This document shows positions 15,337-22,413 of a stretch of DNA of 64,000 nucleotides, piece by piece. Position 1 is the stretch's first letter. Each line of letters starts with the position of its first letter. The DNA is taken from NCBI GenBank assembly GCA_007693745.1, contig REDA01000039.1:124001-188000 (forward strand), in the 5' to 3' direction. The notes below the pieces were generated by a model. The model did not search any database and was not told the DNA's origin. It saw only the letters and a list, made by a program, of their open reading frames with translations. The DNA comes from Balneolaceae bacterium. GTDB taxonomy: Bacteria; Bacteroidota; Rhodothermia; Balneolales; Balneolaceae. A program made the position numbers and the translations under genes.

Positions 15337-15552
15337 TATAAATTTTATGACTTTTAGTTAAAATGAGGTCTATTGATAACTATTTTTTAAATCATATACA
15401 AACATGCTGATCCCTCTCTGATCTTTGGCCAGCCTCATGGATAACTGACTATATTGATGATACTTTGATTGCGGAATCTTGAACTGATTCGGTATCTTAG
15501 AGACGAAATTGATAAAATTATTTACTGTCATCCGACGTTCATTTTTGACTCC

Positions 15553-18500
15553 ATGAAATGGGGATCTGAACGAACCTACTTAACAACCATGAATTTAGCT
15601 TTACTGTTTTCTCAGCATAAAACGCGAAATCTGTTTTTTGCTACTATCAGCTTCACCTACGCTTTCATCATCTATACGATGACAGTGGCCCCAACTGCTT
15701 CCTTCTGGGATCCCGCTGAGTATATTGCCATATCACATACTCTGCAGATTGCACATCCACCGGGTTCACCTTTTTTTGCACTTGTGGGACGACTGGTCTC
15801 CATGTTCATGCCTTCCGAATATGTTGCCCTCAGCATAAATATGATCAGTGTAACTGCATCTTCTTTCACCGTCATGCTGCTCTATCTTATCGTGGTTCGC
15901 CTTGTGGAGGAGTGGAGAGGTCCGGCTGAGAGCATGGACAGATCTGATCTTTTGGGTTTATACGGAGGCGGGATCATCGCTGCATTTACATTTACAGTTA
16001 CCCACACGCACTGGTTCAATGCCGTAGAAGCTGAAATGTATGCATCCTCTATGTTTTTTACGGCACTGGTAGTTTGGATGGCCCTGAAGTGGTCTGCTTC
16101 TCACCGGAATCCGCACTCTGAAAGATGGCTGTTATTGATTGCTTACCTGTTCGGTATCGGGATTGGTGTGCACCTGCTCAACCTTCTGGCTCTCTTTTTT
16201 GTCGCTCTGCTGGTTTATTTTAAAAAATATACTTTCTCCATCAAGTCTTTTCTGGCTATGATGGGTCTGTCAATTATTGGCTTTTTATCTATCTATCCAC
16301 TCATTATCATTCTTATTCCCGATTTTGCAGGCAGAATTTCGGCCCTTACATACGGCTTGATAGGACCTGCCAAACTTTTGGTTCTTGTGGTCGCTTCCGT
16401 TGCAGCCGCAGTTTATTTTACACACAAGAAAGGGTACCGACTCGCTAACCTGATACTGCTCTGTTATTCGATGATTATCATAGGCTATTCCAGCTATGCT
16501 CTTGTGATTATCCGATCACAGGCTGAGCCCCCTATCGACGAAAATGATCCCTCTACGGTCGAAGCTTTTGTGAGCTATTTAAGCCGGGACCAATATGGTA
16601 CATCCCCGCTCTTCAGGGGCCACACCTTTGATAACCGTACCGGTACGATTGACCGTTCGGCTGAAGTGTACTTTCCCCGACGCCACTCCTCACAGCCCCA
16701 CCACCTGGAGTACTATTCAAATTTCCAGTCCGATATGCAATACTTTCTGCAGTATCAGGTGAATCACATGTATATGCGTTATCTCTTTTGGAATTTTATT
16801 GGCAGGGAAGCTGATATTCAGGATACCGGCTGGTACTCCGGATTCTCAACTACGCGTCACGCAGACAATCCTGCCAATTCAGGATACTTTTATCTTCCTC
16901 TTCTGCTTGGACTGTTTGGAATGCTCTACCATTTCAGAAAAGACTGGAGGCGTGCGATCTCTGTTTTTGCACTCTTTATTCTTACCGGACTTGCGATCAT
17001 TTTCTATCTAAATCAAACACCCTATGAACCGAGGGAGAGGGATTACGCATATGTAGGCTCGTTTTTCGCTTTTACAGTATTTTTAGGGCTTGGAGTCACC
17101 GGCACTGTGGAGCTGCTCAAAAAGAGCCTGGGGAATCAATTAATGGTCAAATATACTGCACTCGGAGCAATATTTATTGCAGTACCCGGCTGGATGCTCT
17201 ATCAAAACTGGCCCAGTCACGACAGAAGCGAACGGTATGTCGCAAGAGACTATGCTTACAATCTGCTGAATTCTGTGGACTATAACGCCATTCTTTTTAC
17301 CAATGGAGATAACGACACCTTCCCTTTGTGGTATCTGCAGGAAGTGGAGCGGATTCGAACAGATGTAAGGGTGGTCAACCTCAGTCTCCTGAATACCGAT
17401 TGGTACATCAGACAGATGCGGGATCGTCAGACTCATGAATCTCTGCCGCTTGCCATTACCCTCACCGACGAGGAAATTGAAAATATGACCTCCAGGCTTG
17501 AACTCTATTTTCCGGATGAAATGGCGATACCGGTAAGAAAAGATCTGCTATCAATCATTTTTGAGAAAAGTGCGGATGAACGGAACAGTCTCTCACTTTC
17601 TGATGTCCGGGAGTTGGTTCCGGATGATATTGAGGTCACTGAAGTTCTTTTGAACCAGATCCGTATGGCTACCCCCTTCTCATTGGCAGTGGATGAACTG
17701 GATGATGAAGTTCGCTGGTTTCTTCCAGGAAGATCAGCAGGAAGAGATTCTCAGGGAAATGAGCGTTTCTATCTGCAGACGCAGGACCGAATGATTCTGG
17801 AGCTTCTGATAAACAACATGTGGCTGAGGCCTGTTTATTTCGCGAATACTGTAGCCAGAAGTGGTCAAATTGGCCTTGAAGAGTATTTCCAGTTTGAAGG
17901 GAAAGCATTCCGTATTGTACCGAAGAGGCGTGCAGCCGGGCCCTTTGGCTATGTAGATCCAGATGTTCACGCAAGCAGAATGGGGGCATTCCGGTTTGAA
18001 GGATGGAATTCTCCCACGGTTTACTTCGATGAAAATATCCGCAGAATGCTTGGAAACTATCGCTATGGTTTCACTCAACTTGCCGATGCGTATGCAAACA
18101 GCGGGGATCTTGAATCTGCAGCTCACTGGCTGAAATTTGGAGAAGAGGTGATTCCATTCAGGAATATTGAACATGACTGGACAGTTGCAGCACTTTACGC
18201 ATTCCGATATATGAGAGTAGGTGAAGAGTTACGGGCAAATAATCTAGCATTCTTTATCGCTCAAAGATTAATGCACGACTTAAAATTTGATATGATTAAA
18301 CTGGATGAAATTGAAGCCAAAATTTCTCAACTCGATCAGGATATTCGGACTGCCAGAAGCAGAGCAAGAACCGAAAGAGCAAGAAATTTAAGAACAAGAC
18401 AGGAAAGAGTGATCCGGCAGCGGGAAGCTGCAATTCAGGATATCAGCTTTTCAGTCAGCAGATTAACTATTTTGCAAAATATCTTTTTTGAACATAATGA

Positions 18501-18621
18501 TTTCGAAACTGCTGAATATCTGAAAATTGAAGTGGCCCGGATCACTGATAACAGACTGTCAATACCTGATTCTATTGAAGAAAGCAGGGATCAAATCCGT
18601 TTTTTCGGATTAGCTGATTAA
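15553..18621 (+). CDS. DUF2723 (TMEM260-like) membrane protein, putative protein O-mannosyltransferase
   Basis: Large integral-membrane protein of the DUF2723 family, which belongs to the GT-C-like set; the human homologue TMEM260 is a protein O-mannosyltransferase. The frame opens at a TTG (15469), but the ATG at 15553 (1022 aa) or 15589 fits the family better. Near the N-terminus is SFWDPAEYIAISHTLQIAHP with the acidic residue placed as in GT-C enzymes, followed by PPGSPFFAL. About 10-12 membrane helices run to residue ~560, with the conserved TPYEPRERDYAYVGSFFAF loop near the end of that block. The last ~450 residues are soluble, with a TPR-like stretch and an Arg/Glu-rich coiled coil. It would glycosylate exported proteins; acceptors unknown. 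Confidence 0.85.
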   Translation: MKWGSERTYLTTMNLALLFSQHKTRNLFFATISFTYAFIIYTMTVAPTASFWDPAEYIAISHTLQIAHPPGSPFFALVGRLVSMFMPSEYVALSINMISVTASSFTVMLLYLIVVRLVEEWRGPAESMDRSDLLGLYGGGIIAAFTFTVTHTHWFNAVEAEMYASSMFFTALVVWMALKWSASHRNPHSERWLLLIAYLFGIGIGVHLLNLLALFFVALLVYFKKYTFSIKSFLAMMGLSIIGFLSIYPLIIILIPDFAGRISALTYGLIGPAKLLVLVVASVAAAVYFTHKKGYRLANLILLCYSMIIIGYSSYALVIIRSQAEPPIDENDPSTVEAFVSYLSRDQYGTSPLFRGHTFDNRTGTIDRSAEVYFPRRHSSQPHHLEYYSNFQSDMQYFLQYQVNHMYMRYLFWNFIGREADIQDTGWYSGFSTTRHADNPANSGYFYLPLLLGLFGMLYHFRKDWRRAISVFALFILTGLAIIFYLNQTPYEPRERDYAYVGSFFAFTVFLGLGVTGTVELLKKSLGNQLMVKYTALGAIFIAVPGWMLYQNWPSHDRSERYVARDYAYNLLNSVDYNAILFTNGDNDTFPLWYLQEVERIRTDVRVVNLSLLNTDWYIRQMRDRQTHESLPLAITLTDEEIENMTSRLELYFPDEMAIPVRKDLLSIIFEKSADERNSLSLSDVRELVPDDIEVTEVLLNQIRMATPFSLAVDELDDEVRWFLPGRSAGRDSQGNERFYLQTQDRMILELLINNMWLRPVYFANTVARSGQIGLEEYFQFEGKAFRIVPKRRAAGPFGYVDPDVHASRMGAFRFEGWNSPTVYFDENIRRMLGNYRYGFTQLADAYANSGDLESAAHWLKFGEEVIPFRNIEHDWTVAALYAFRYMRVGEELRANNLAFFIAQRLMHDLKFDMIKLDEIEAKISQLDQDIRTARSRARTERARNLRTRQERVIRQREAAIQDISFSVSRLTILQNIFFEHNDFETAEYLKIEVARITDNRLSIPDSIEESRDQIRFFGLAD

Positions 18622-18951: not shown

Positions 18952-19422
18952 ATGATACACGAATTTACCGAGCAGAACATTCAGAATATCGGAAGAGTAT
19001 TGAAATGTACTCCAAAAAAACTGGGTGACGATGTTTTCAGGCTTGAGCTTGTGAGTGAGGAAGACAACAGAAAGCTTGCACTGGAAATACATTTGGGCCT
19101 GAATCTTGAAGATAAACGCATGAACATGGTCTCAGTTTATGCTACCAGTACTTTTATGCAGCTTCATAACTGCACTGCATTTATCGCAAGTGATATGCTG
19201 AGACAGGTTACTTTTTTCGGGAAGTGTGAACAAAAAACATCCGGATTAATCGTCGGCAGCAATGCAGGGTGCAGTTTTTATGCGAATGTGGATGAAGCTG
19301 TGCTGACCGGTGATTTCACAAGGCTGCCGCAGGATGTCATGATGTGCGGTGTTGCACTATCTCTGACCGACAGTCTGGATGGAGACGATTTCAAATTTGA
19401 TGATGACCCTCCGATTTCCTGA
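18952..19422 (+). CDS. Hypothetical protein upstream of ybeY
   Basis: A 156-aa cytosolic protein without signal or membrane segment. The sequence alternates amphipathic helices and strands and is rich in Met and Cys (for example TAFIASDMLRQVTFFGKCE, GSNAGCSFYANVDEA) with an acidic tail (DGDDFKFDDDPP). The size and alpha/beta pattern recall CesT/YbjN-like chaperone folds, but this is only an impression. Its 3' end overlaps the start of ybeY by about 23 bases, so the two are translationally coupled. Confidence 0.7.
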   Translation: MIHEFTEQNIQNIGRVLKCTPKKLGDDVFRLELVSEEDNRKLALEIHLGLNLEDKRMNMVSVYATSTFMQLHNCTAFIASDMLRQVTFFGKCEQKTSGLIVGSNAGCSFYANVDEAVLTGDFTRLPQDVMMCGVALSLTDSLDGDDFKFDDDPPIS

Positions 19423-19879
19423 TATCCCCGATGCGTCAGGTGACCAAAAACTAATCATTGACGGGTCACTGCAAAGTAAGCTGCCCGTGAATGCTCACCA
19501 GTTTGAGCAACTAATGGCCGTTACAGAGAAGGTTCATCACATTCACTTCCGCTCAGTTGAACTGATTTTGGTTGATGAAAATGAAATCACCGAGATTAAC
19601 AGAGAGTTTCTTGATCGGGATTATGTCACAGATATCATTTCATTCAACTACAGTGACGAAACCGATCTGTTATCCATTGAAGGTTCACTTTATTGCTGCT
19701 TGCCCAGAATTGTTGAGCAGAGTTATGAATTTAATGCTTCCATTCAGTGTGAACTTTCCAGGATCTTTGTTCACGGACTCCTGCATCTGGCCGGTTATGA
19801 AGACGATACCTCTGAAAAAAGAGAGACCATGACATTACTTGAAAACCAAATTCTGAAACTGGCCGGCATCGAATTGTGA
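19400..19879 (+). CDS. ybeY: Endoribonuclease YbeY (rRNA maturation factor)
   Basis: Zn-dependent RNase involved in 16S rRNA 3'-end processing and ribosome quality control. The ATG at 19400 (or 19403) gives about 159 aa; a longer reading from 19379 overlaps the previous gene further. The core motif is HGLLHLAGYEDD: the two first histidines are present, but the third metal ligand of the usual HGxLHLxGYDH is replaced by Asp, a form known in Bacteroidota-type YbeY. The upstream DYVTDIISFNYS stretch is also typical. Its stop overlaps the GTG start of the topoisomerase-like gene (GTGA). Confidence 0.92.
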   Translation: MMTLRFPDIPDASGDQKLIIDGSLQSKLPVNAHQFEQLMAVTEKVHHIHFRSVELILVDENEITEINREFLDRDYVTDIISFNYSDETDLLSIEGSLYCCLPRIVEQSYEFNASIQCELSRIFVHGLLHLAGYEDDTSEKRETMTLLENQILKLAGIEL

Positions 19880-21249
19880 CACCTGTTTATACACTTTTGA
19901 TTGTTGAATCTCCTGTAATTGCCCGCATTATACAACAACTGGTGCCCTCATCAGTTTATGTAGTTGCCACCGGTGGATATTGCTGGAAACCAAAATTCAA
20001 TTACAGGAACAGCAGTCTCCAGGCGATTGCAGATCCAAATCTCTCCTCCGTAAGGAAAGAGTTAAAAGAACAAGCCGGGTTGGCTGGAACTGTGATTATT
20101 GCAACAGATACCGATCCTTCCGGTGATTTTATCGCCTGGTCTGTCGCAAGATTTTTAAAAACAAACACCGTAAAGAGGGGCAAACTCCAAAATCTTTCAA
20201 GAAGCGGCATTCTTTCCATGATGGATGAAATCCGGGAAATGGATACTGAACAGCTTGAAGTGCGTCTCAAGAACCGATTTCTGATTCGCCATGAGTGGTA
20301 CCATCAGAAAGAATTTCCGGAATTAGAGCTTTCAGGATTTATCTCACTTTTCTCCGGCAGGACAAGCTACCGCCATTTTGTTGATGAAAATAATGAGTTG
20401 CATCAAAGTTCAGTTCCTGTTAAGGCAAACCCTGATCAATGGATTTCCCTTTCAAAAATTGATAATGAAACTAAATATTTCAACCAGAATCCGCTTTCCC
20501 TCTATGATTTAATCCCGGCTCTTGTTCAAAACGGAACTGCAAATTCATATCACACTGCTCAAAATGATCTTCAGAATCTTTTTGAGGCATCATTGCCAGA
20601 CGAACAGGTTTCACTGATCAGCTATCCGCGAACGGGAGCTTTTTCTTTCTATAGTGAGACGTGGGATGTACTTCAAACTCAATACCTGAAACTGGGCTTA
20701 CAAGAGCCTTTCAAACCAAACTTTCTGAGGGACATTGCCGATCCGGAAATACCACATGAGAGTATTCATCCGCTGAATCTGGGAATAGGTCCGGAGGCTA
20801 TCCGAAAAAGAGTACCTTCGGAACTATCTCAAATCTACTCCCTCATCCATGATCACACTCTGCAGTCGGTCCAGATACCGGCACCACTGCACAGCGCATG
20901 GTTCAGTGAACTCGATCCTGAGGTTTACTTCTATAGTTTAATAAGAAACGGGGAGAAATCAGCCGCAAAAGAGATCTTTCTCAGGCCTTGTATTACTCTC
21001 TCAGACGCTGGCAAAATGCTTGACAGATTAGGGGTACTCAGACCCTCAGGCTTTGGGAAAGCCATCGATAAATGGGTAAATGAGGGATGGGCGACGATCT
21101 CCGGTAACGTAATCAATCCCGGTAAATCAGTTCAAAAATATCTCGGCAAATCTTCACGAATTTACAAAACTCTACAGGAACTGAATGATCATGCAGACTC
21201 TTTTTCATTAAATTCTGCAACTATACAAAGTCTAATTACGTCAAATTAA
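19876..21249 (+). CDS. Compact, divergent type IA DNA topoisomerase-like protein
   Basis: 457 aa from a GTG start that overlaps the ybeY stop. It keeps the order of type IA topoisomerase landmarks in a shortened form. The Toprim domain has LLIVESPVIARII (Glu11) and ATDTDPSGDFIAW (Asp78, Asp80), where canonical enzymes read DPDREGE, so the third acidic residue is Ser82. The active-site region is ISYPRTGAF with Tyr250 where bacterial TopA has the nucleophile. Then come HESIHP (for HEAIRP) and GVLRPSGFGKAIDKWVNEGW (for GIGRPSTYA). There are no C-terminal zinc fingers. Canonical TopA core domains alone are nearly 600 aa. It may be an active minimal enzyme, a decatenase-like specialist or a non-catalytic relative. 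Homology is clear from motif order; activity is uncertain. Confidence 0.75.
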   Translation: MTPVYTLLIVESPVIARIIQQLVPSSVYVVATGGYCWKPKFNYRNSSLQAIADPNLSSVRKELKEQAGLAGTVIIATDTDPSGDFIAWSVARFLKTNTVKRGKLQNLSRSGILSMMDEIREMDTEQLEVRLKNRFLIRHEWYHQKEFPELELSGFISLFSGRTSYRHFVDENNELHQSSVPVKANPDQWISLSKIDNETKYFNQNPLSLYDLIPALVQNGTANSYHTAQNDLQNLFEASLPDEQVSLISYPRTGAFSFYSETWDVLQTQYLKLGLQEPFKPNFLRDIADPEIPHESIHPLNLGIGPEAIRKRVPSELSQIYSLIHDHTLQSVQIPAPLHSAWFSELDPEVYFYSLIRNGEKSAAKEIFLRPCITLSDAGKMLDRLGVLRPSGFGKAIDKWVNEGWATISGNVINPGKSVQKYLGKSSRIYKTLQELNDHADSFSLNSATIQSLITSN

Positions 21250-21291: not shown

Positions 21292-22413
21292 ATGGAAGAG
21301 CAAAAAGATATAAAGCCCGGGCAAGAAGAACCTGTAAGAAGCCTGGGGAATCTCCTTTACACCCATCTTTATCTGAAAACGGAGAAGAAAGAAACTGTGC
21401 AACATCATTCGGTATCACCGAATCTTGCCAAAAGTTTACCCATTCTTGCTTTCCTCAGACCTCTGCCCTGGATTCTTACCGGGTTTTTTTTATTTTCATT
21501 TTTCTGGGACTTTAATGGTATCCACTGGAGTTATTTTCAATTCAATCTGCAATTTGAGGGACTCCTGAGGATTTTGTCTGTGAGCGGGCTCATCGGTTTT
21601 TTAACAAACTGGATTGCGATAACCATGCTGTTCAGACCACTAAACCGGAGGCCACTTCTTGGGCAGGGATTAATTCCGGCTCATAAGCAAAGAATCGCCT
21701 ACAGATTAGCGTCGGCAGTCTCTGATGATCTGATTAACCCCGAACTCATCAAGGAAAAAATCAGAGAGTCAGACGCCATCAGCCGATACAGAACACAAAC
21801 AATAGAACATCTGAGCAAAGTTACTTCAGATTCTGAATTTCGTGAAGATCTGAAGAGATGGGTTCACAACTATTTGACATCATTGGCTGAAAATCCGGAA
21901 TTCAGACACAATTTGATCTCTGAATTGCTCAAGGAGATTGAAAACACCCTGAATGACCATATCCTCGAAAAAGCTGCTCTGAAGACCTATTTTTTTTTCA
22001 AGGGACAAACACTGCATCAGTTCATTGATGAACTCCTGGGTAAGCTGCCTGATACCACTGTCCATCAGTTTACCTGGATTGACACCTATCTGGATGAATT
22101 ACCCGACCGGATGAATTCCAATGGTGAAGCAATCGATGAAATATTTTCCCTTGTTTTGCACCGGCTTGTAAACCAACTCGATGTTCGACAGCTTGTTGAG
22201 GCAAATCTCAAAAAGTTTGATGAAAAGAGATTAGAAAACATGATCCGTAACGCCACAAATGAACAACTCCGCACCATCCAGTACCTGGGTGCCATCTTGG
22301 GTACGATCGGAGGATTTGTCATCTGGGAACCTTTGATCAGCATCACATTCATCGGTTCGGTATTTATTATGGTCTGGTCGATTGACAGGGTGGTTTTTCA
22401 GAATTCCGCCTGA
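21292..22413 (+). CDS. DUF445 membrane protein
   Basis: A 373-aa protein with membrane segments near residues 55-75 and 85-110, and again near the C-terminus (about 345-368), enclosing a long helical region. The DUF445 signature is the segment GLIGFLTNWIAITMLFRPL followed by RRPLLGQGLIPAHKQRIA. Related proteins (YheB/YqfA-type) are membrane-associated and of unknown function. The start is 42 bases after the topoisomerase-like gene, on the same strand, so it may be the last gene of that operon. It converges on ppiB. Confidence 0.85.
   Translation: MEEQKDIKPGQEEPVRSLGNLLYTHLYLKTEKKETVQHHSVSPNLAKSLPILAFLRPLPWILTGFFLFSFFWDFNGIHWSYFQFNLQFEGLLRILSVSGLIGFLTNWIAITMLFRPLNRRPLLGQGLIPAHKQRIAYRLASAVSDDLINPELIKEKIRESDAISRYRTQTIEHLSKVTSDSEFREDLKRWVHNYLTSLAENPEFRHNLISELLKEIENTLNDHILEKAALKTYFFFKGQTLHQFIDELLGKLPDTTVHQFTWIDTYLDELPDRMNSNGEAIDEIFSLVLHRLVNQLDVRQLVEANLKKFDEKRLENMIRNATNEQLRTIQYLGAILGTIGGFVIWEPLISITFIGSVFIMVWSIDRVVFQNSA

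Follow-up and report, generated by a model that had tools for sequence, protein, structure and literature searches.

A compact topoisomerase I-like protein of Balneolales with conserved catalytic residues and a putatively rebuilt strand-binding groove

Introduction

The catalytic chemistry of bacterial topoisomerase I (TopA), a type IA enzyme, has been assigned using structures and mutants: a glutamate and the DxD motif are metal ligands, an arginine acts on the transition state, and a histidine serves as a proton relay (PMC7587558, PMC6101483). In the complex of M. tuberculosis TopI with Mg2+ and DNA, the metal is contacted by the Toprim glutamate, by the first aspartate, and, via water, by the second aspartate (PMC6101483). 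One review includes Glu115, the last residue of DxDxE, in the Mg2+-binding triad and describes lethal rejoining-deficient mutants at this position (PMC7823277). E. coli TopA cannot do without Lys13 in DNA cleavage, which is greatly reduced by both K13A and K13R (PMC5983628). Changes at Tyr177, Arg195, and Gln197 cripple the enzyme, and the loss of the Tyr177 wedge abolishes cleavage (PMC7587558). As for the genomic context, the dprA-smg-topA cluster has been reported to be widely conserved in other bacteria (PMC5817196).

Here, we describe topoL, a type IA topoisomerase-like gene located in a 64,000-nucleotide stretch of a Balneolaceae contig (REDA01000039.1, assembly GCA_007693745.1), referred to below as the window. 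The lineage carrying this gene consists of salt-loving bacteria. A literature search, mostly without subscription papers, found no publication on a topoL-like family. Judging by alignments, the main finding is that topoL keeps six of the six residues responsible for chemistry and almost none of the residues that grip the strand in TopA.

Gene and sequence identity

The features of the topoL gene are listed below (window coordinates; residue numbers are those of the protein, with E. coli TopA equivalents in brackets).

19876–21249, + strand: topoL, compact type IA topoisomerase-like gene, 457 aa, GTG start (Pfam/NCBIfam, PDB profile, and fold)
19906–19908, + strand: codon of Glu11 (Glu9), the Toprim glutamate, invariant
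20107–20121, + strand: Asp78-x-Asp80-x-Ser82 (Asp111-x-Asp113-x-Glu115), with the two Asp retained and Ser in place of Glu
20272–20355, + strand: residues ~133–160, shortened region; most residues of the TopA counterpart (Arg168–Tyr177 and GLSAGRVQS) are absent in two alignments
20623–20631, + strand: Tyr250-Pro-Arg252 (Tyr319, Arg321), catalytic Tyr and Arg, by alignment
20755–20757, + strand: His294 (His365), by alignment

The reading frame and its motifs agree exactly with the initial annotation; the motifs are, in order, ESP at Glu11, DTDPSG (78–83), LISYPRTGAF with Tyr250, HESIHP starting at His294, and, close to the C-terminus, GVLRPSGFG. The absence of zinc fingers claimed there also holds, since a Pfam search reveals just Toprim (8e-8, above the cut-off) and a weak Topoisom_bac match (7e-4, below the cut-off), and neither C-terminal zinc ribbons nor Toprim_C_rpt repeats. 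The nearest NCBIfam model is topA_bact (TIGR01051, 3e-16), which scores 59 bits, whereas its curated cut-off is 456. The TopB model gives 10.6 bits, and reverse gyrase scores are lower than those of TopA. The topoL family profile matches TopA in the PDB with an E-value of 5e-25, and the profile–profile comparison with TopA gives a probability of 99.7 and an E-value of 6e-26. Thus, on its sequence, topoL is a remote relative and not a TopA; it is best read as a paralogue of bacterial topoisomerase I consisting of a bare four-domain toroid.

With TopA (TIGR01051; PF01131 and PF01751), topoL shares the motif order, the four-domain toroid, the Toprim Glu/Asp/Asp, and the catalytic Tyr, Arg, and His, as well as the ESP and HExxxP motifs and the PS of GxGRPS. 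However, TopA proteins are about 750–890 aa in length, whereas topoL has 457 aa, lacks both zinc ribbons and Toprim_C_rpt repeats, reads DxDxS in place of DxDxE, and shows a core identity of 17–21%. The Pro after the catalytic Tyr (YPR in nearly all members) and the lack of a long C-terminal region resemble TopB; unlike TopB, topoL has neither a Lys following the Toprim Glu nor DxDxE, and its best profile scores are to TopA. The topoisomerase half of reverse gyrase has the toroid and the catalytic residues in common with topoL, which is devoid of the helicase half. In size, topoL is well below the compared type IA enzymes, such as E. coli TopB (653 aa) and T. maritima TopI (633 aa).

Several other identities were rejected. 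A phage or mobile origin was not supported by any relative in viral contigs, and the PHROG match was weak (E 0.026). A defence system was discarded, as PADLOC returned no match. A split TopA completed by a neighbouring gene does not agree with the neighbours, which are ybeY and a DUF445 gene, or with a toroid complete in one chain.

Predicted structure and catalytic residues

The AlphaFold model of topoL, built with 33 homologues, has a pLDDT of 90.6 and a pTM of 0.87. Residues 2–456 of the model align with M. smegmatis TopI (Z 29.6, 4.5 Å over 400 residues), and residues 3–456 superpose on residues 2–574 of the E. coli TopA covalent complex (Z 28.3, 4.7 Å, 386 residues). The protein is therefore predicted to form a complete four-domain toroid with the Toprim domain D1 and the tyrosine-bearing domain D3. 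A structure prediction lacking the gate domains would have contradicted the relationship to topoisomerases; in the model all of them are present.

The equivalents of TopA Glu9, Asp111, Asp113, Tyr319, Arg321, and His365 are invariant in all 31 aligned topoL homologues, including Tyr250 and Asp78/Asp80, whose conservation had been singled out for checking. If all positions are considered alike, the probability of finding every one of these six within the 24 columns that are invariant, out of 456, is 1e-8. The catalytic motifs are also kept in the more distant members, with YLR instead of YPR at one locus (L204). The position corresponding to Glu115 is occupied by Ser in 29 of the 31 sequences and by Ala in two, so that Ser82 is indeed typical of the family. 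Position 12, directly after the Toprim Glu, is an invariant Ser, whereas topoisomerase III has Lys there. Asp323 of TopA is kept in a minority of the family.

The Toprim triad had initially been described as changed. This is overstated, because the Mg2+ contacts in M. tuberculosis TopI are made by the Toprim Glu and the two Asp (PMC6101483), and Glu11, Asp78, and Asp80 are intact and invariant in topoL. What stands is the replacement of the last Glu of DxDxE by Ser, a position that one review does assign to the Mg2+-binding triad (PMC7823277); without this Glu, cleavage and rejoining may be balanced differently.

Strand-binding residues

The residues of topoL were mapped on E. coli TopA by alignment and checked by an independent profile–profile alignment; the groove residues of TopA are conserved in the 10–12 TopA sequences that were aligned. 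Lys13, which follows ESP in TopA, is replaced by I, L, M, or V in 31 of 31 topoL members. His33 is replaced by Tyr or Phe and Arg168 mostly by Asn, while Asp172 and Tyr177 are lost. The Gly194-Arg195-x-Gln197 helix of domain D4 is absent at the aligned columns in both alignments, in a region (~140–200) where the mapping is weakly aligned. The position of Arg507 is variable, and Thr496 is not kept. Arg173 is deleted in one alignment, whereas the other retains it in part as Arg138; for Lys13, His33, Arg168, Asp172, Tyr177, Gly194/Arg195/Gln197, and Arg507, the two independent alignments agree. Residues that are invariant in the topoL family in their place are Trp37, Pro39, Arg60, Pro206, and Trp263. 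The lost grip on the G-strand, absent from the initial annotation, is a larger change than that in DxDxE.

Distribution and selection

The topoL family was found only in Balneolales, namely in the genus of the window (Rhodohalobacter, by named relatives), in one further Balneolaceae genus, and in a second family of the order. In the genus of the window, orthologues with 40–52% identity are present in 26 of the 28 genomes, including the source genome; the two genomes without topoL are 57–64% complete and also lack a detectable ybeY. Distant members with 25–34% identity come from G256, the other Balneolaceae genus, and from the second family, where eight genomes of two genera carry topoL and none was seen in a third genus. 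Among 394 genomes of the phylum, no further sequence rose above the TopA background. An alignment-based scan of ~85,000 species genomes gave good matches only in Balneolia, plus weak lactobacillar matches; a genome scan with the single topoL protein as the query found nothing.

The reading frame is intact in 38 distinct homologues, which shows that it is not a chance ORF. The dN/dS values are 0.06–0.16 in twelve measurable pairs (348–449 codons) and 0.24 in one fragment of 179 codons. The gene is under purifying selection and is not decaying, and a truncated pseudogene was rejected on the same grounds. Its divergence is nevertheless faster than that of topA: when the source genome is compared with G011 over the same core columns, the identity is 43% for topoL versus 83% for topA. 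In the phylogenetic tree, the family forms one clade with full support, and its stem branch comprises 4.7 changes per column.

Proposed activity

In our view, topoL is probably an active, re-targeted single-strand transesterase that descends from a type IA topoisomerase and has had its strand-binding groove rebuilt. This draws directly on sequence, conservation, predicted fold, synteny, and purifying selection, from which we infer catalysis, the use of Mg2+, and a changed substrate. Most likely, Tyr250 of topoL would form a 5'-phosphotyrosine link, through which a single strand of nucleic acid would be cleaved and rejoined. Arg252 would stabilise the transition state, Glu11, Asp78, and Asp80 would hold Mg2+, and His294 would complete the proton relay. 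The G-strand would be held differently from TopA: D4 has lost its Gly-Arg-Gln helix, and Lys13, the Tyr wedge, and the pocket for the −4 cytosine are not kept either. Invariant in their place is the family's own set of Trp37 and its companions. Since the parts that hold the strand are lost and those that cut and rejoin it are kept, the protein probably has a different substrate or a different way of working. Cleavage is not assured, because topoL has no equivalents of Lys13, Tyr177, Arg195, and Gln197, nor the topoisomerase III-type Lys beside Glu11.

It is possible, and here we are tentative, that topoL represents a new functional class, namely a transesterase derived from type IA enzymes that dispenses with the common G-strand groove and acts on a different substrate. 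Candidates within the same reading would be a structured RNA, DNA with branches or tails, or a strand bound by protein.

The initial annotation left the choice between a topoisomerase with an altered mechanism and a non-catalytic relative. The former is favoured; an active enzyme is preferred because, even at 25–30% identity, none of the six chemistry residues varies. The main rival, which we regard as unlikely, is a retired enzyme, that is, a non-catalytic nucleic-acid-binding or scaffold protein whose toroid clamps DNA or RNA. The loss of equivalents of Lys13, Tyr177, Arg195, Gln197, and Glu115, several of which are needed for cleavage by E. coli TopA (PMC5983628, PMC7587558), speaks for it, as do the long stem branch and the fast divergence relative to topA of the same genomes. 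However, Tyr, Arg, Glu, Asp, Asp, and His are exactly the residues that stay invariant, and there is no evident reason for a pseudoenzyme to retain the nucleophile and its Arg while losing the strand grip.

Somewhat less likely still is an ordinary small type IA topoisomerase replacing a missing topoisomerase III, with decatenation at single-stranded regions as its task. Both Tyr-Pro-Arg and the absence of C-terminal repeats recall topoisomerase III (PMC10969213); the motif of E. coli TopB is ITYPRSD. In the source genome, a search with the topB profile yielded only topA and no topB. Against this, topoL has no Lys after the Toprim Glu, profiles place it nearer to TopA than to TopB, its strand-grip residues are gone, and most sampled Balneolaceae genera lack topoL and show no second match to type IA enzymes either.

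As a re-targeted transesterase, topoL would be a natural protein separating type IA chemistry from the strand-holding apparatus. If active, it would indicate a minimal set for phosphotyrosyl chemistry and provide a natural test of the roles of Lys13, Glu115, and the Gly-Arg-Gln helix.

Genomic neighbourhood and origin

The genes surrounding topoL in the window are as follows.

18952–19422, + strand: 156-aa protein, no match in Pfam or NCBIfam; precedes ybeY in the whole order
19379–19879, + strand: ybeY (rRNA maturation RNase), directly upstream of topoL (Pfam/NCBIfam, synteny)
19876–19879, + strand: GTGA, four bases shared by the topoL start and the ybeY stop; translational coupling likely
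21292–22413, + strand: DUF445 protein, follows topoL wherever the locus is long enough (domain match, synteny)

Every sufficiently long topoL locus includes the 156-aa protein, ybeY, topoL, and DUF445 in that order, and the four-base overlap is found in 19 of 25 Balneolaceae loci. Where topoL is missing in the examined Balneolaceae genera, DUF445 comes immediately after ybeY, with one exception in which DUF445 is only weakly matched. The second family has smg (DUF494) between ybeY and topoL, and DUF445 again after topoL. The smg gene was not found in sampled Balneolaceae; other families of the order keep it beside ybeY. Elsewhere in the phylum, smg adjoins ybeY in all loci except one cut by a contig end, and a normal topA stands directly after smg in 15 of the 27 smg (PF04361) loci outside Balneolales. 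In several other loci, a xerC-like gene follows smg.

Thus, topoL occupies the topA slot (ybeY-smg-topA) used by other lineages of the phylum, so that a paralogue stands where the operon normally carries an essential gene; the working topA lies elsewhere. Since ybeY-smg with a normal topA is common in the phylum, the linkage to ybeY is inherited, and this neighbourhood is no evidence of a function with YbeY or RNA. The overlap points to co-expression of topoL and ybeY and not to a joint function. The initial statement that the gene is kept together with ybeY is right as to adjacency and overlap, which are explained by the gene order of the phylum and not by a shared RNA function. It is improbable that topoL is an RNA-directed topoisomerase or cleavage enzyme acting with YbeY on rRNA: type IA enzymes are able to act on RNA (PMC7587558) and the overlap recurs, but the neighbourhood also surrounds normal topA genes, and in the second family smg stands between ybeY and topoL. 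The transesterase proposed above would probably be made in step with YbeY through the stop–start overlap and would supplement the normal topA.

A normal topA, whose presence had been left to be checked, is encoded in the source genome (G000:C16:17284-19833, L001); its product has 850 aa and four Toprim_C_rpt repeats. The idea that topoL is the only topoisomerase I of this genome was thus rejected. Both here and in the second family, the working topA carries Toprim_C_rpt repeats and is located after a peroxiredoxin-like gene, and one tested topA from the ybeY-smg slot (L118) has zinc ribbons. The repeat type of the working topA versus the zinc-ribbon type in the slot suggests that topA was replaced within the class. 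When TopB was used as an outgroup, it attracted the long topoL stem. In the tree without TopB, origin from the zinc-ribbon slot topA was compared with origin from the repeat-type topA of the class, and neither was preferred (p-AU 0.508).

The 156-aa protein has no PADLOC or PHROG match; it is 48–80% identical across the order and is more conserved than ybeY and topoL. Its predicted structure (pLDDT 77) consists largely of beta structure plus a helical tail, and no PDB match was obtained under E 0.001. A large membrane protein of ~1000 aa (15469–18621), which we take to be DUF2723-like, is constantly found upstream of the ybeY–topoL cluster in the order.
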